A stretch of 25,050 bases of DNA, from positions 1-25,050 of the IMG/VR virus record IMGVR_UViG_3300023179_000483; one strand, 5' to 3'. This document shows positions 13,539 to 23,204 of the stretch, piece by piece. The number at the start of each line of letters is the position of its first letter. The first letter of the stretch is position 1. The notes under the pieces are model-generated. The model was not told where the DNA came from. It did not search any database and saw only the letters and a list, made by a program, of their open reading frames with translations. A program made the position numbers and the translations under genes. The DNA comes from a virus.

Positions 13539-13608
13539 GTAAATGCGTGAGTGGTTGAAACGGATAGTCTCCAAAACTATTGATGAAAGTCCGCGTGGGT
13601 TCAAATCC
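13539..13608 (+). pseudogene. Truncated tRNA with CCA anticodon (Trp-type), 3' end missing
   Basis: Good D-region (GTGAGTGGTTGAAA), anticodon stem ATAGT/ACTAT with loop CTCCAAA, a long variable region, then GTGGG and T loop TTCAAAT. The sequence then stops matching: no 3' T-stem strand, acceptor or CCA. The break coincides with the end (13609) of the convergent HNH gene. An intact tRNA-Trp(CCA) lies on the other side of that gene. Confidence 0.65.
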
Positions 13609-14154
13609 TTATAATGTTTTGGACACTTTATATCCGAAGTTTTCTAGCACTTTTTGACAGTGAATTAGATATTCATCTAATGACATATCAGATTTGGAGC
13701 GATTAGCAATATCAGTGCATACGCCTAAATTTTCAAGAGAGTTTGTTCCGCCCCTGGAAACAGGGATGATATGATCAAGGGATATTCCTCTTGCTTGATT
13801 TAAATCAAGCAAATCACCTGTTAAATAACATTTCGGATTATTTTGTATTAATTGATATACATCCTGCCAAGAAAAATTCATTAATTGTGAATCATATGGA
13901 ATTTTTCTCCCATTACCAATATTATTTTGGCTATGTTGGAATCCCTCAGTTTTAACTTTTAAACGATTTTTGAAATTGGACACTTTCACAATTAAAGGAT
14001 TGTCAATTTTAAGTTGTTTAAAACGGTTTATAACTTTTTCTTTTCCAGAAGGAGCACAATAGTAATTAATAAGTGATTTGGAACAATTTAGTAGTTGACA
14101 TATCTCCTGATATGATTTACCTTCTTCTCGTAGTTTTAAAATTTTAGTTTTCAT
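13609..14154 (-). CDS. HNH homing endonuclease with N-terminal HTH
   Basis: A 181-aa free-standing homing endonuclease. Residues 1-35 form a resolvase-like helix-turn-helix (KLREEGKSYQEICQLLNCSKSLINYY). The C-terminal HNH nuclease shows CYLTGDLLDL, then LDHIIPVSRGGTNSLENL with the catalytic His, and a final N/K segment (DIANRSKSDMSLDEYL). It is convergent to the tRNA array, abuts a truncated tRNA at its 3' side and lies upstream of an intact tRNA-Trp. A perfect late element TATAAATA lies 10 nt before its ATG. It probably cleaves tRNA-bearing DNA of related phages. Confidence 0.88.
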   Translation of the reverse strand: MKTKILKLREEGKSYQEICQLLNCSKSLINYYCAPSGKEKVINRFKQLKIDNPLIVKVSNFKNRLKVKTEGFQHSQNNIGNGRKIPYDSQLMNFSWQDVYQLIQNNPKCYLTGDLLDLNQARGISLDHIIPVSRGGTNSLENLGVCTDIANRSKSDMSLDEYLIHCQKVLENFGYKVSKTL

Positions 14155-14194: not shown

Positions 14195-14269
14195 AGGATA
14201 GTAGCCTAAAAGTGAGGCAGCGGATTCCAAACCCGTACGAAGTGGGAGCGTTACCTACCTATCCTGCCA
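14195..14269 (+). tRNA. tRNA-Trp (CCA), atypical T loop
   Basis: Acceptor AGGATAG/CTATCCT, G73, CCA. D arm GCCT/AGGC with loop AAAAGTG (no GG). Anticodon loop TTCCAAA in stem GCGGA/CCCGT, whose loop-closing pair is A:C. T stem GTGGG/CCTAC with loop AGCGTTA. Confidence 0.88.
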
Positions 14270-14516
14270 CAGAGACGTTAGAAAGGGTACCTGAAAAGGT
14301 AACGGGCAGAAATCCTTTATTAAAAGAAAGTTGGCTTAGAGGCAGCCATCTTATAATGAGTGAGACGAAGTACTGGCAACCGCGAAATGCTATCTTGATA
14401 TGGTAAGAGTATGTGATAGTGATGTGGGTACAGATAAATATGGAAAGTAAAAAGGCACCCCGTAAATGGTAAGGCTTAATTTCTCTTTGGCGTAGCAGCA
14501 CACTTTTAATATTTTA
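14270..14516 (+). ncRNA. RNA carrying a 23S rRNA GTPase-associated-centre (L11 site) hairpin
   Basis: This 247-nt gap between tRNA-Trp and tRNA-Lys has no plausible ORF. Bases 14330-14350 match E. coli 23S rRNA 1059-1079 (H43, as I recall it) at 20 of 21 positions. The thiostrepton/L11 loop CTTAGAGGCAGCC keeps A1067, and the only change is A1070 to G. It continues into TTATAAT, GAGTG (14358-14362, as in the B. subtilis-type H44) and ACTGG (14372-14376, H42 3' strand). The H44 loop and the 5' H42 strand are not preserved. An upstream hairpin (CGTT/AACG enclosing ACC/GGT, 14276-14304) and TATC/GATA downstream suggest a folded RNA. Role unknown. Confidence 0.7.
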
Positions 14517-14602
14517 TGCGGATGTGACAGAACGGTTATGTAGCGGCCTTTTAAGCCGCGCTGGTAACAGCTACGTGGGTTCGATTCCCACCGTCCGCAC
14601 CA
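14517..14602 (+). tRNA. tRNA-Lys (TTT), copy 1, with long variable arm
   Basis: Acceptor TGCGGAT/GTCCGCA, CCA. Anticodon stem GCGGC/GCCGC, loop CTTTTAA. T stem GTGGG/CCCAC, loop TTCGATT. The variable region forms a hairpin GCTG-GTAA-CAGC, a class II feature not expected for tRNA-Lys. Confidence 0.85.
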
Positions 14603-14918: not shown

Positions 14919-14920
14919 GT

Positions 14921-14928
14921 GATAAATA
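14921..14928 (+). promoter_or_regulatory. T4-late-like promoter GATAAATA before HNH gene
   Basis: GATAAATA matches TATAAATA at 7 of 8 positions and ends 9 nt before ATG 14937. Confidence 0.5.
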
Positions 14929-14936
14929 CTATTGGA

Positions 14937-15482
14937 ATGGTAGATTATACAAAAAGATTAATAGGTAGTAAATTTGGAAAGCTTGAAGTAATTGATTTTT
15001 CAGGTTATTCTAAAGGAAATAAAACTCGTTGGTTATGTAAATGTGAATGCGGTAATACAAAAATAGTTAGAAACGATTGTTTACAATCATTAGCTACACA
15101 GAGTTGTGGATGTATAAATAAACAAATTGGTTCGGATAGTAAATCATATAAAGGGTATGAAGATTTAGCACTATACTTCTTCAATAGTATGAAGAATGGT
15201 GCTATTCGGAGAAATCTAGAATTTTCAATTACGATTGAGGATGCGTGGAATTTGTTTCTGAAACAGAATAAAAAATGTATATATAGCGGATGGGATTTAC
15301 TTCTTCCGAGTTCTAAAAAATTAGAAAAAACTGCATCATTAGATAGAATTGATTCAAGTAAAGGATATACAGTAGATAATATTCAATGGGTACATAAAGA
15401 TATTAATGTAATGAAGATGAATTACTCACATGAGTATTTTATGAAGATAGTTCAAGCAATAGCTAAAAATAATGCGGTATAG
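14937..15482 (+). CDS. Zinc-finger homing endonuclease (HNH-related)
   Basis: Starts at ATG 14937 (an upstream GTG at 14919 is possible), 181 aa. The N-terminus MVDYTKRLIGSKFGKLEVI is followed by WLCKCECGNTKIV and SCGC, a Cys-rich module common in phage homing endonucleases. The C-terminal part has a degenerate HNH-like fold: KCIYSGWDLLLP, ASLDRIDSSKGYTVDNIQWVH and NVMKMNYS, typical of proteins of this group. Its stop codon TAG lies inside the acceptor stem of the downstream tRNA-Gly, so coding sequence and tRNA overlap by 9 nt. A truncated tRNA-Gly precedes it. Confidence 0.85.
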   Translation: MVDYTKRLIGSKFGKLEVIDFSGYSKGNKTRWLCKCECGNTKIVRNDCLQSLATQSCGCINKQIGSDSKSYKGYEDLALYFFNSMKNGAIRRNLEFSITIEDAWNLFLKQNKKCIYSGWDLLLPSSKKLEKTASLDRIDSSKGYTVDNIQWVHKDINVMKMNYSHEYFMKIVQAIAKNNAV

Positions 15483-16116: not shown

Positions 16117-16190
16117 TGCCCATTAGCATAGAAGCAATGCAGACGCCTTTGAAGCGTAAAACGAGGGAGAGTTACCTTCATGGGCTACCA
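16117..16190 (+). tRNA. tRNA-Gln (TTG), copy 2, atypical loops
   Basis: Acceptor TGCCCAT/ATGGGCT with a T1:T72 mismatch, CCA. D arm GCAT/ATGC with loop AGAAGCA (no GG). Anticodon loop CTTTGAA. T stem GAGGG/CCTTC with loop AGAGTTA. Confidence 0.82.
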
Positions 16191-16194
16191 TTAT

Positions 16195-16268
16195 ACTCCA
16201 TTAGCACAGAATCAATGCACTCGACTCTGAACCGAGATAAGATGGCGAGATACCATCATGGAGTACCA
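16195..16268 (+). tRNA. tRNA-Gln (CTG), atypical loops
   Basis: Acceptor ACTCCAT/ATGGAGT, CCA. D arm GCAC/ATGC with loop AGAATCA (no GG). Anticodon stem CTCGA/CCGAG (A:C at loop end), loop CTCTGAA. T stem GATGG/CCATC with loop CGAGATA. Clearly a paralogue of the Gln copy 4 nt upstream. Confidence 0.82.
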
Positions 16269-17039: not shown

Positions 17040-17726
17040 TTAGAATAAAATATTATTACGTTTACAGAAATTTCGGACAGCATTGTCACTGACATTTAAG
17101 TCTTGTGCAATACTTACAAAAGTTTTTGTTTTAAGCATATCAGTCATATCTTGAATAGAAGGCCAAATAATTTTAGGTTGATAACTAGGAATACATTTTT
17201 TACACATCCGACCTTTGTTTTTCACTTCTTCTAAATTACATTTAATACATTTAAATGATGGTTGTTCTTTTATGCGATTTTTTGTTCCGAATGTAGAAGT
17301 TTGACTATGGCAATTAGGACATAAAAATCTTAAATTTGATAGTTCGTTATTAAACGGGTTTCCATCTATATGATCTAATTGTAAGGTTAATACTTTATTA
17401 TTCCATTCAGGAGATAAATTACATTCTTGACATTTATGTTCAAGAATATTAAATTTTAACAAATAATGTCTAATTTTTTTAGATGTGTTTAATTTTTTTA
17501 AATATTTTTCAATAAAATCATTTTTAGTTAGTGGAATGAATTGACCCTCTTTTTTATGTTTGATATAATGATCAATATTAAAATTGTTTTCTTTCACAAT
17601 TTTATGAAAGGTTTTATATTTTCCTCCTTTAGGACTTAGATTGAATTTCTGTAGAAATTCTGATATTGAATTTGTTTCTTGTATAGTGGTTTGAAAAAGA
17701 TTAAGAGGAATATTTCGAAGTCTCAT
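17040..17726 (-). CDS. HNH homing endonuclease with C-terminal HTH
   Basis: A 228-aa protein convergent with tRNA-His, ending 3 nt from it. Order of parts: an N-terminal helical region; CQEC zinc half-site (about residues 94-97); the HNH motif LQLDHIDGNPFNNELSNLRFL with CPNC completing the zinc site and the ββα-metal fold; a second Cys cluster (CIKC...CKKC); and a C-terminal helix-turn-helix (SIQDMTDMLKTKTFVSIAQ, DNAVRNFCKRNNI). It is clearly paralogous to the HNH at 21333-22040. A 13-bp inverted repeat spans its start codon, and a late-like AGTAAATA lies upstream, suggesting late-only translation as in T4 homing endonucleases. Confidence 0.9.
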   Translation of the reverse strand: MRLRNIPLNLFQTTIQETNSISEFLQKFNLSPKGGKYKTFHKIVKENNFNIDHYIKHKKEGQFIPLTKNDFIEKYLKKLNTSKKIRHYLLKFNILEHKCQECNLSPEWNNKVLTLQLDHIDGNPFNNELSNLRFLCPNCHSQTSTFGTKNRIKEQPSFKCIKCNLEEVKNKGRMCKKCIPSYQPKIIWPSIQDMTDMLKTKTFVSIAQDLNVSDNAVRNFCKRNNILF

Positions 17727-18894: not shown

Positions 18895-19713
18895 ATGGTG
18901 AAAATAGTAGAAATAATATGTCCGATATGTGACAAAATCGCTTCGAAGGAAAAGAAAGAAGTTACTAGGCAAACAAAAAAGGGTAATCCTATTTTCTGTT
19001 CTAAGGAATGCGCTCGGATAAACTGTTCTAGAAAAAAGACCATACATTCTGAAATAGTTAAAAACTGTCCAATATGTTCAAAGGCTTTTACTAGCACTAC
19101 ACATAAACGAGCGAGAATTTGTTGCTCAAATCAATGTGCTAATCAATATGGGCATACATCCTCTAGTAGAGAACAAGTATCTAAATCTTTAAGAGATTTT
19201 TATCAGAAAAATACCCATCCAATGCTAGGGAAGAAATATCCATTTAAACCTCGTCCATATCAACGTTCAGATGGGTTTAAAGTGATAAGAACGTGTACTT
19301 TCTGTGAAAAAGATTTCGAGCATCCGACAAGGACAACATGTTCAAAAGAATGTCATCATAACAGATTATCTGATAAGTGTGGTGGTGAAACCAATTATAA
19401 GAAGTTTCAATATAAAGAAATTTGGATGGATTCTTCTTGGGAAGTTGATCTAGCTAAATGGTTTGATGAAAATCAGATTGAATGGATTAGGGATAAGAAG
19501 ATAAATTTTGTTTGGATTGATACTAATCAAGTTTCTCATAGATATTATCCTGATTTTTATCTTCCAAAATATAATGTTTATATAGACCCGAAGAATAAAT
19601 TTTTACAAGAAAAGGATAAAGAAAAGCTTGATTATGTTAGAGAACATGATAAAGTAATGTTGTTAACGGGTTTTATAGAAGATATAAAACAAGAGTTAAA
19701 AAAATTTAGATAG
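18895..19713 (+). CDS. Zinc-finger homing endonuclease with PD-(D/E)XK-like nuclease domain
   Basis: A 272-aa protein. The N-terminal 160 residues hold three Cys-rich modules (CPIC...CSKEC; CPIC...CCSNQC; CTFC...CSKEC), typical DNA-binding zinc fingers of phage homing endonucleases. The C-terminal region reads EVDLAKWFDEN, then YYPDFYLPKYNVYIDPKNK. The spacing of E, PD and DPK fits the PD-(D/E)XK (Vsr-like) nuclease fold rather than HNH. It lies alone between tRNA-Ala and tRNA-Leu. A hairpin 5 nt before ATG probably limits translation from read-through transcripts. It is presumed to cleave tRNA-region DNA in competing phages. Confidence 0.85.
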   Translation: MVKIVEIICPICDKIASKEKKEVTRQTKKGNPIFCSKECARINCSRKKTIHSEIVKNCPICSKAFTSTTHKRARICCSNQCANQYGHTSSSREQVSKSLRDFYQKNTHPMLGKKYPFKPRPYQRSDGFKVIRTCTFCEKDFEHPTRTTCSKECHHNRLSDKCGGETNYKKFQYKEIWMDSSWEVDLAKWFDENQIEWIRDKKINFVWIDTNQVSHRYYPDFYLPKYNVYIDPKNKFLQEKDKEKLDYVREHDKVMLLTGFIEDIKQELKKFR

Positions 19714-20204: not shown

Positions 20205-20233
20205 TTGACTGCCAACTATTTCTATGGTATCAT
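20205..20233 (+). promoter_or_regulatory. Promoter giving a leaderless HNH mRNA
   Basis: TTGACT at 20205-20210, 17-bp spacer, TATCAT at 20228-20233 with a TGG extension. ATG 20239 lies exactly 6 nt after the -10, which fixes the start in preference to ATG 20224 inside the promoter. Confidence 0.75.
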
Positions 20234-20238
20234 ATGGG

Positions 20239-20847
20239 ATGAAACAAGAAATTTTAAAGTTGAATGCAAATTTTTCGCCAATCGGAACAACGGATTGGAA
20301 AAAATCCATGATAGATATCGTATCTGGTGCAGCATATCCAGTTGACGTAACTTATTACCAGAATAAACAGGGTGAGGTTGATCTTGAAAAAGTTGAATCA
20401 CTTAATGTGATTAAAGGTTTTGAAGAATGGTTTGAATTACCTGTTCGTCCCTATGACGATTTTGCTAATTCTCCTAATCGAAGAGTTCGTATTCCGCCAG
20501 TGGTGGTATGTGCTCGCTTTGATAAAATCTTCCATAAGAAAGTAATTTTCCCTACTAAGAATAACATCTGGAAAAGAGATAATTACACTTGTGCATACAC
20601 GGGTAAGAAATTACATCGGGATGAATTATCAGTAGATCATATCATTCCTAAGAGCCGTGGGGGTGGTAACACTTGGACTAACTTGATTACTTGTGAAAAG
20701 GCTACTAATGTCTTAAAGGCAGATAGAACTCCAAGAGAAGCAGGTATGAGATTGTTATTCAAACCCGTACGTCCTGAAAATGGAATGATCTTTGATACTA
20801 TTCGTGAAGAATGGAATATGTTCCTAGATGTAGAAAAATATAAATAA
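20239..20847 (+). CDS. HNH endonuclease, 202 aa
   Basis: Begins MKQEILKLNANFSPIGTTDW. The N-terminal 100 residues match the conserved lead-in of a common HNH family (AYPVDV, VRIPPVVV). The HNH core follows: KRDNYTCAYTGKKL, ELSVDHIIPKSRGGGNTWTNLITC, then NVLKADRTPREAGMRL. In this family the first knuckle is usually CxYC; here the second Cys is Thr-Gly, so zinc binding may be altered, while the catalytic DH is kept. Unlike the other endonuclease genes it has a sigma70-type promoter, suggesting early expression. A broken tRNA-Leu-like sequence follows. Confidence 0.9.
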   Translation: MKQEILKLNANFSPIGTTDWKKSMIDIVSGAAYPVDVTYYQNKQGEVDLEKVESLNVIKGFEEWFELPVRPYDDFANSPNRRVRIPPVVVCARFDKIFHKKVIFPTKNNIWKRDNYTCAYTGKKLHRDELSVDHIIPKSRGGGNTWTNLITCEKATNVLKADRTPREAGMRLLFKPVRPENGMIFDTIREEWNMFLDVEKYK

Positions 20848-21100: not shown

Positions 21101-21181
21101 ACCTTGGTAGCGGAACTGTCTTCGAAACAGTGCATAACCCGTAACGGACGCATGCAGGTTCAATTCCTGTTCAAGGTACCA
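21101..21181 (+). tRNA. tRNA-Arg (TCG) without a D arm
   Basis: Acceptor ACCTTGG/TCAAGGT, CCA. Only 7 nt (TAGCGGA) precede the anticodon stem ACTGT/ACAGT with loop CTTCGAA. A 22-nt 3' linker (with CCGTAACGG) precedes T stem GCAGG/CCTGT, loop TTCAATT. Confidence 0.78.
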
Positions 21182-21190
21182 TTTTATATA

Positions 21191-21346
21191 ATGAAAACTC
21201 CAACAAAAAAACAAAGATTAGATTATATCAAATTTTTGGAAAAGAGACTAGCAAGTAAAAATTTCAAATCGAATGTTTCAGAAGAAGAATATATGAAAAC
21301 GAAACAAAAGCTTGACAATGAACGATTAAAGGTTAAACTGATGTAG
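21191..21346 (+). CDS. Small basic hypothetical protein, 51 aa
   Basis: I start at ATG 21191, 9 nt after the tRNA-Arg CCA; the longer frame reads through the tRNA and is unlikely. Sequence MKTPTKKQRLDYIKFLEKRL, then EEEYMKTKQKLDNERLKVKLM: a Lys-rich, helical or coiled-coil protein. It is convergent with the HNH gene and overlaps its end by 14 nt. Not recognised. Confidence 0.55.
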   Translation: MKTPTKKQRLDYIKFLEKRLASKNFKSNVSEEEYMKTKQKLDNERLKVKLM

Positions 21347-22040
21347 TTGGATTATTTTTGATCCAAAAACCTTTAGGTTTTAAAGGAATATTATGTTTAT
21401 TACAAAATTTTCTAATACCATTGTCTGATACATGTAATATTTTACTTAATTCTGTAAGTGGATGAGAATTAACCAAATTAGTTAATTCTTCAACAGAAGG
21501 CCAATCTATTTTAGATTTATAAATTCTTTGTTTTTTATTTTTAGATTTTTTAATATTTTTTGAACCATATGTCGGTGTTTGTGAATGACAATTAGGACAT
21601 AAGAATCTTAAATTTTCTAAAAGATTATTGGAAGAATTTCCATCTATATGATCAAGTTGTAGCGTTAATGGCTTATCTAAATGTATACCTGTATTATTAC
21701 AGATATAACAAACATAAGGAATAAGATTATACTTAAATATTTTTTCTCTTAACATAGTACCTGATGCAGGATGCCCATGTTTACAAAAAACTTGTTCGAT
21801 AGGAATTTCTTGTAATTTATTTTTATTGATCCGTAAATTTTTTAATTTTTCATGTCTATTAAAATTAAGCTTTGATTGATCAATATTAAGTATCTTAGCT
21901 ATATATGATAATTCTCTCAGTCTCCAAGAACATTTATGAATTTTTAATTTTTGAAGGATTTCATTCTTTGAAGAAGAAGTATCAAAAAGTTCTTGCAATT
22001 GTTGAGTAGATAATGTAAGTTCAAGTCGGTTAGTATCCAT
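21333..22040 (-). CDS. HNH homing endonuclease, paralogue of the 17040-17726 gene
   Basis: A 235-aa protein. The N-terminal half is helical and basic. The zinc/HNH region contains CYIC (about residue 113), LQLDHIDGNSSNNLLENLRFL and CPNC, followed by a C-terminal helix-turn-helix (VEELTNLVNSHPLTELSKI, DNGIRKFCNKHNI). The HNH and HTH blocks align with those of the 17040-17726 protein (LQLDHIDGNPFNNELSNLRFL), so these are diverged copies of one mobile endonuclease. A perfect TATAAATA late element ends 7 nt before ATG 22040. It lies between tRNA-Arg and tRNA-Cys. Confidence 0.9.
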   Translation of the reverse strand: MDTNRLELTLSTQQLQELFDTSSSKNEILQKLKIHKCSWRLRELSYIAKILNIDQSKLNFNRHEKLKNLRINKNKLQEIPIEQVFCKHGHPASGTMLREKIFKYNLIPYVCYICNNTGIHLDKPLTLQLDHIDGNSSNNLLENLRFLCPNCHSQTPTYGSKNIKKSKNKKQRIYKSKIDWPSVEELTNLVNSHPLTELSKILHVSDNGIRKFCNKHNIPLKPKGFWIKNNPTTSV

Positions 22041-22702: not shown

Positions 22703-22780
22703 GCAGGTATGGCAGAGTTGGCTATATGCACCTTTCTTGTAAAGAGGACTACGTGGGTTCGAATCCCTCTACCTGCTCCA
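22703..22780 (+). tRNA. tRNA-Thr (TGT)
   Basis: Acceptor GCAGGTA/TACCTGC, T73, CCA. D arm with GG. Anticodon stem CCTTT/AGAGG, loop CTTGTAA. T stem GTGGG/CCCTC (one T:T mismatch), loop TTCGAAT. The 3' 32 nt overlap the end of the convergent HNH gene. Confidence 0.92.
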
Positions 22781-23162
22781 TTTTATTTCTTATTCTTTTA
22801 CTATTTTTGTTTAATGCTCTAAAATTAGGTGTAAGTGAATGACAATTTGGGCATATAACTTCTAAATTTGAAGGAAGATTATTAGTTACATTACCATCAA
22901 TATGATTAATCTCTAGTGGGACTTGATGAGTGATTGGATTAATTTCATTCCATCCACATTTAGAACATTTACCATTGGCTTGTTTTATTAGAAATTTTCT
23001 AATACAAGGTTTCATTTTCATAGTTTTACCAGTTATAGCGATAAAATTCCCTTGTTGCCATGCGACTAAATTTTCATTAGTGCGATATTTATTTTGGCAT
23101 AGATTATTACAAAATTTAGTTCCTTTTCCTAAAATTATATTATTACAATATATACAGTTCAT
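22749..23162 (-). CDS. Short HNH homing endonuclease overlapping tRNA-Thr
   Basis: I start at ATG 23162 (MNCIYCNNIILGKG), 137 aa, because the longer frame begins with a hydrophobic unlikely leader. There is an N-terminal zinc knuckle (CIYC...CNNLC). The nuclease domain is KCSKCGWNEI, LEINHIDGNVTNNLPSNLEVI, CPNCHSLTPNF. The last residues (VEGFEPT) are encoded by the antisense strand of tRNA-Thr, whose complement supplies the stop; such EGFEPT endings are typical of reading a tRNA backwards. A TTTAAATA late-like element precedes the ATG. It lacks the HTH of the larger HNH paralogues. Confidence 0.85.
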   Translation of the reverse strand: MNCIYCNNIILGKGTKFCNNLCQNKYRTNENLVAWQQGNFIAITGKTMKMKPCIRKFLIKQANGKCSKCGWNEINPITHQVPLEINHIDGNVTNNLPSNLEVICPNCHSLTPNFRALNKNSKRIRNKMEQVEGFEPT

Positions 23163-23167
23163 AAAGA

Positions 23168-23175
23168 TATTTAAA
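23168..23175 (-). promoter_or_regulatory. Late-like promoter TTTAAATA before the short HNH gene
   Basis: Minus strand TTTAAATA matches TATAAATA at 7 of 8 positions and ends 6 nt before ATG 23162. Confidence 0.45.
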
Positions 23176-23204
23176 ATTAAGTACAACATATAGCAAGAAA
23201 TCAC

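Follow-up and report, generated by a model that had tools for sequence, protein, structure and literature searches.

The window, by which we mean the whole 25,050-nucleotide stretch of DNA analysed here, is part of a phage genome, and its 25 kb hold a tRNA array (20 tRNAs by ARAGORN) interspersed with HNH-type ORFs. By eye, many ORFs with Cys/His patterns resembling those of HNH or homing endonucleases occupy either strand in the gaps of the array (Table 1). The Rfam tRNA model marks four additional tRNA-like stretches missed by ARAGORN (14195–14266, 16117–16187, 16195–16265 and 21101–21178), the first being the tRNA-Trp that adjoins the RNA described below, and the array therefore exceeds the count of a single caller. 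A further stretch at about 13542–13620 (TGAGTGGTTGAAACGGATAGTCTCCAAAACTA...GGGTTCAAATCC), reported by neither caller, resembles a degenerate tRNA, possibly a tRNA-Trp that has decayed or been interrupted, next to a gene of HNH type. Within this array, where the initial annotation had placed it, and more precisely between tRNA-Trp and tRNA-Lys, lies a complete copy of the GTPase-associated centre (GAC, helices H42–H44) of 23S rRNA, opened by an inserted domain between positions 1090 and 1091. Cleavage by RNase P at the 5′ end of tRNA-Lys would, we infer, free the 3′ end of this RNA at 14517.

Table 1. Features of the RNA locus and neighbouring genes (window coordinates)
Feature	Position	Strand	Basis
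HNH-/homing-endonuclease-like ORF	13609–14154	−	By eye
tRNA-Trp (CCA anticodon), upstream, encoded 3′ CCA	14195–14269	+	cmscan tRNA 38.5 bits at 14195–14266; CCA read at 14267–14269
Leader from tRNA-Trp to RNA core, with small hairpin TACCT-GAAA-AGGTA (14288–14301)	14270–14317	+	Sequence; not conserved in family
P1/H42 5′ strand (= 23S 1047–1055)	14318–14326	+	9 standard pairs with 14503–14511
H43 thiostrepton hairpin (= 23S 1057–1081); A1067 = 14338, 1072 = 14343	14328–14352	+	20/21 identity; 1058–1080 covariation
H43/H44 junction (= 23S 1082–1090); tertiary pair A14353-U14357, A1088 = 14359	14353–14361	+	1082–1086 pairing in family
Inserted domain closed by P2 (14362–14365/14482–14485)	14362–14485	+	P2 closing pair 117/117; related inserts aligned
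Insert inner helix with conserved internal loop	14380–14395/14415–14427	+	
Insert hairpin CCG-UAAA-UGG	14460–14469	+	
UUUG + H44 3′ half (= 23S 1091–1103); A1095 = 14494	14486–14502	+	Motif linkage; 1092–1099 double changes
P1/H42 3′ strand (= 23S 1104–1112)	14503–14511	+	Pairs with 14318–14326
tRNA-Lys, downstream	14518–14602	+	ARAGORN; cmscan 57.6 bits
HNH-/homing-endonuclease-like ORF	14919–15482	+	By eye
HNH-/homing-endonuclease-like ORF	17040–17726	−	By eye
HNH-/homing-endonuclease-like ORF	18895–19713	+	By eye
HNH-/homing-endonuclease-like ORF	20224–20847	+	By eye
HNH-/homing-endonuclease-like ORF	21333–22040	−	By eye
HNH-/homing-endonuclease-like ORF	22749–23204	−	By eye

The first clue to this RNA was the resemblance of bases 14330–14350 to 23S rRNA 1059–1079, for which the identity of 20 out of 21 positions given in the initial annotation is confirmed; a chance match is ruled out for this hairpin, as the top match to the same 21-mer in eight simulated windows of equal composition was 14–15 of 21. 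Elements of H44 and H42 had been described as following in the native order at nearly native spacing. The GAC mimicry itself stands, as does the H44 element GAGTG, the counterpart of 1087–1091, but the uninterrupted order does not, since the insert splits H44 and the earlier description covered the 5′ half only. Likewise, the ACTGG at 14371 proposed as the partner strand of H42 lies inside the insert, the true 3′ strand being found some 130 bases downstream. In BLASTN against phage records, conservation falls into two blocks. One is the H43 hairpin; the other, which lies 130 bases further on and ends in TTTGGCGTAGCAGCACAC, corresponds to the 3′ portions of H44 and H42 (23S GCGTAATAGCTCACTGG). 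The true 3′ half of H44 is GCGTAGCAGCACAC (equivalent to 1091–1104), which together with the 3′ strand of H42 occupies 14490–14511, and once this downstream half is used all expected GAC pairs form in the window. Here the tertiary pair 1082–1086 is A-U, a double change relative to the U-A of rRNA.

The Rfam bacterial LSU model (RF02541), another proposed check, bore out the resemblance in part, giving in permissive mode a match at 14325–14374 (E = 0.0043) that scores 16.9 bits against a gathering score of 50; its colinear alignment up to 14374 was discarded, the downstream half being preferred. With this score, its position between phage tRNAs and its non-contiguous 1090 and 1091, the RNA is not a member of the LSU rRNA family. 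Single-sequence folding is uninformative, the minimum-energy fold of the window RNA alone being no better than that of shuffles (z = +1.1).

The window RNA belongs to a family of at least 117 distinct versions (less than 80% identical) found in phages and prophages, in viruses from metagenomes and on one plasmid. Among named phages it is present in Aeromonas phage 4_4572, in Pseudomonas phages Milchi, Astolliot, pf16 and UNO-G1W1, in Serratia BF, Erwinia jumbo phages, Pectobacterium CBB and Cronobacter GAP32 (GAP32, CBB and BF being jumbo phages as well), in Xanthomonas XbC2, XacN1 and XaC1, in Acinetobacter ME3 and in Vibrio 2.275.O. Scans of IMG/VR retrieved at least 119 stretches by the 3′ motif alone and 104 by the 5′ motif, and the two halves are reciprocally linked: an H43-like element lies within 520 bases upstream in 117 of the 119 stretches found by the 3′ motif only (0 of 118 shuffles), and the 3′ element is present in all but a handful of 81 stretches found by the 5′ motif only, the exceptions including one real 23S rRNA. 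About 15 more members reside on bacterial genome contigs from several phyla, and the two that were inspected (L275 and L213) are surrounded by prophage-like genes. A full member near TraT and HU genes on plasmid 1 of Aromatoleum aromaticum EbN1 (NC_006823.1, 186824–187106; L394) means that the RNA is not confined to phages. Its usual setting is a tRNA array, a tRNA being located within 1 kb in 104 of 172 members and on the same strand in all 104. With similarity extending well past the 21 bases and conservation in related phages, the core of the initial annotation, a phage RNA mimicking the L11/thiostrepton region of 23S rRNA, is well supported.

Tandem copies occur in Milchi and at a metagenomic locus (L068, minus strand), and Astolliot probably carries two as well; in the tandem pairs (L003, at about 2155–2475 and 2487–2664, and L068) one copy has C1072·C1092-G1099 and the other U1072·U1092-A1099. 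Several matches were set aside, those in Bacillus phage CM1 (L298), a Salmonella plasmid (L393) and Klebsiella ‘nucleotide kinase’ records as chance, and those in Paenibacillus Pd_22F (L301) and at L193 as genuine 23S rRNA.

Covariation was read in 117 members of less than 80% identity, collected by exact motifs and retained by tolerant patterns, so that conservation within the fetching motifs is partly imposed. The comparison of related phages for compensatory changes, which the initial annotation had called for, finds covariation at all variable helix pairs. Pairs 1054–1105 and 1058–1080 are each formed in 116 of the 117, the latter by near-equal types (GC 41, TA 41, AT 30); the closing pair of P2 forms in every member, with five pair types; and stem 1048–1053/1106–1111 is paired in 87–106 members using all four Watson-Crick types (shuffles about 50). 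The 7-bp P1 is 87% paired across the sample, and 31–46% when slid by 1–3 columns. RNAalifold, given 20 members and no structure, recovers P1/H42, H43, P2 and H44 with double-sided changes at 16 of 24 pairs; it shifts the H44 hairpin slightly (UGGC/GCACA), a reading indistinguishable from ours because the closing pairs are invariant.

The covariation extends to tertiary structure. The non-nested pair 1082–1086 is formed in 107 of the 117 (UA 61, CG 30, AU 16; shuffle mean 64, maximum 75), a slide control being weak at this pair because G1087 can wobble; in bacterial 23S rRNA (32 types) it is U-A almost without exception, 1082 being U in all types that are readable and 1086 being A in 31 of the 32. 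The H44 pair 1092–1099, chosen as a prospective test, shows the U-A double change at 38 loci and single changes at 5 and 3. In the ribosome 1072 forms a base triple with this pair, and in the family it tracks it, being C in 72 of 73 C-G RNAs and U in 22 of 23 U-A RNAs. U1060 and A1088 are both invariant, which is compatible with their long-range pair and leaves no covariation to read. Within the half not used for fetching, where drift is still bounded by the later tolerant filter, positions 1059, 1060, 1063, 1071, 1079, 1085, 1087–1090, 1091–1094 and 1098–1103 are invariant, 1072 is kept in 65 of 66, and 1061, 1067–1070, 1096 and 1097 vary. In loci fetched by the other motif half the loop apex 1067–1070 is looser than the core; 1068, 1069, 1070, 1096 and 1097 are variable, 1070 and 1096 more so than in the sampled 23S, and A1067 is replaced by G or another base in 17 of the 117 members, G at this position being found also in three Bacteroidota 23S types. 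An association of A1067G with 1097C, possibly tracking the host, is weak by eye.

A covariance model built from 14 short-insert members, with the window left out, finds the window RNA at 91 bits (E = 9e-30) and also detects the named phages and the plasmid, genuine bacterial 23S GACs scoring 47–65 bits. Since helices, tertiary pair and base triple covary, these RNAs evolve as expected of a folded GAC. To judge from these substitution patterns, the family almost certainly keeps the three-dimensional GAC fold, and maintenance of this predicted fold by selection is shown by the same patterns.

The likeness to the GAC of 23S rRNA (E. coli 1051–1108, within RF02541) encompasses H42, H43 and H44, the 1082–1086 pair, the 1072·1092-1099 triple, the bases U1060 and A1088, A1095 and usually A1067. 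Unlike its model, the phage RNA stands alone, falls short of the RF02541 threshold, contains the insert at 1090/1091, an extra UUUG and an A at 1101, and ends in a free stem, variable in sequence, where the ribosome has lower H42 with its L10 site. Small non-coding RNAs in phage tRNA arrays have a precedent in the T4 stable RNAs C and D; a relation to these was rejected upon reading their sequences, and the family model has no match at rnaC/rnaD. GOLLD and ROOL are likewise structured RNAs associated with phages or prophages and with tRNA arrays, but they are larger and differently folded, and Rfam matches to either are absent from 20 member loci. At the window and in these 20 loci Rfam 15 reports no family above its cut-off other than tRNAs. 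Mimicry of protein-binding sites on rRNA is familiar from ribosomal-protein mRNA leaders, including those of L1, S8 and L10 (reviewed in PMC10931766), but these are cis-regulatory and lie beside ribosomal-protein genes, whereas the phage RNA is trans-encoded between tRNA genes, and an L11 gene is absent from all 50 carriers searched. In agreement with the initial annotation, which knew of no such phage RNA, a literature search that covered mainly papers outside the subscription journals returned ribosomal-protein leaders and other phage RNAs and no phage GAC mimic. The principle is known; its stand-alone version in mobile elements is, to our knowledge, new.

What such an RNA might do is suggested by the biochemistry of its model. 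In isolation, the 58-nt GAC RNA binds L11 and has its tertiary fold stabilised by the protein (PMC10161774). Since this fold alone suffices for uL11, host uL11 is the most likely ligand of the phage RNA. A host origin of the partner would follow from the lack of an L11 gene in each of 50 carriers, and the substitution of lower H42 by a plain stem of variable sequence suggests that L11 rather than the stalk is the target. L7/L12-like domains are found in only 7 of 44 carriers, and RelA/SpoT partner genes in none of 44. Under the proposed mechanism the RNA would be co-produced with the phage tRNAs, probably trimmed by tRNA processing, and, if abundant, would act as a decoy for host uL11. Sequestration of newly made or exchangeable L11 would give rise to L11-poor ribosomes, and these, in what is the weakest step, might activate RelA and (p)ppGpp synthesis less strongly and shift L11-dependent factor steps to the benefit of the phage. 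That the family RNA binds L11 in the cell is quite likely, and we regard as reasonably probable the explanation as a whole, in which GAC-fold phage RNAs capture host uL11 and perhaps thereby blunt the stringent response or L11-dependent steps; that this consequence is the selected function can be put forward only tentatively. Several points weigh against it. With L11 already on ribosomes, competition must be for new or exchanging protein only; strong L11 depletion should be costly for an F-like plasmid carrying a member; and, against exact mimicry, H44 differs from that of rRNA, 1101 being A rather than U and UUUG preceding 1091.

The same fold could serve other ends. It might draw a host attack away from the ribosome by occupying whatever recognises the GAC (a defence nuclease, a toxin, a modifying enzyme or a thiopeptide antibiotic), much as phage tRNA arrays are able to replace tRNAs cut by host nucleases. 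This parallel would fit its place among same-strand tRNAs (104 of 172 members), its carriage by a plasmid as well as by phages, and a factor-contact loop around A1067/A1095 that is mostly kept. It is nevertheless an unlikely role, as we know of no defence effector targeting 23S 1051–1108, and the thiostrepton determinant A1067 is changed in 17 of 117 members, although some hosts (the three Bacteroidota 23S types) likewise have G.

With or without L11, the RNA might instead act as a translation-factor or tRNA-elbow mimic, binding and titrating EF-G, IF2, RelA or tRNA. A1067 stacks on the elbow of A/R tRNA in RelA complexes (PMC5829649), and binding of EF-G to thiostrepton-loop oligonucleotides has been reported (Munishkin & Wool 1997, as cited in PMC5829649). 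This is hard to reconcile with an apex that varies at 1068, 1069, 1070, 1096 and 1097 while the L11-binding and tertiary core is fixed. Factor affinity for an isolated GAC is also expected to be low, and we consider such titration quite improbable.

A similarly low probability is assigned to the GAC being merely an anchor, with L11 stabilising or localising the RNA and the inserted domain acting as effector. Sub-classes of inserts do have conserved hairpins of their own, such as CACCCC-GNRA-GGUAAGG in 31 of the 117, yet inserts vary from 23 to 419 nt across the family, have no common sequence, and in two unrelated members (L116 and L226) consist of a 23-nt hairpin only; the existence of such inserts implies that the constant GAC part is the likely effector. 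Finally, fragments of rRNA are found in viral contigs, and genuine 23S rRNA was recognised at L193 and L301, but a captured fragment or functionless chance match is extremely improbable here and is refuted by covariation, given the double compensatory changes, the covarying triple, pair types hardly used by rRNA, the conserved insertion point and the reciprocal linkage of the 5′ and 3′ motifs.

Of the functions put forward in the initial annotation, which also included competition for EF-G/EF-Tu or RelA-linked signalling, an antibiotic decoy and ribosome modification, capture of L11 is ranked first. On balance, we favour a view of the family as an ancient and large group of mobile-element RNAs that may copy a ribosome centre, tertiary base triple included, as a trans-acting decoy, stripping away or diverting host L11 or another reader of the GAC. 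If true, we would know of no earlier case of a stand-alone phage RNA modelled on a functional centre of the ribosome, and phages would have an undescribed way of controlling translation or the stringent response. It would open a concrete and testable approach to how phages redirect host translation or its alarm response. The family also amounts to a widespread unannotated RNA class in cultured phages, including pf16, GAP32, CBB, BF, Aeromonas 4_4572 and ME3.

Some minor observations concern individual carriers and inserts. Of the seven carriers with L7/L12-like domains, a 533-kb phage (L440, G125:C1:186003-186209) has its domain (E = 2.6e-21) within a frame of 235 aa; in the six others the C-terminal domain of L12 is matched in part. 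Many inserts (in the window, 14380–14427 and 14456–14474) contain the same internal loop, GCGAAAUG/GUGAUGUG, along with a hairpin of the form CACCCC-GNRA/UMAC-GGUAAGG, and those of jumbo phages share ACCCUUAGAG; these elements look like further structured modules. A gapped pattern of the insert module gave no matches in viral contigs. The GAC is a classic model for RNA tertiary folding and for L11 and thiostrepton binding, of which the family supplies several new natural variants. Among these natural mutants, the H43 pair 1064–1074 is changed from C-G to A-U in L013 (also in L042, L061 and L067), L226 and L232, and in L013 the hairpin loop around this pair is altered too.
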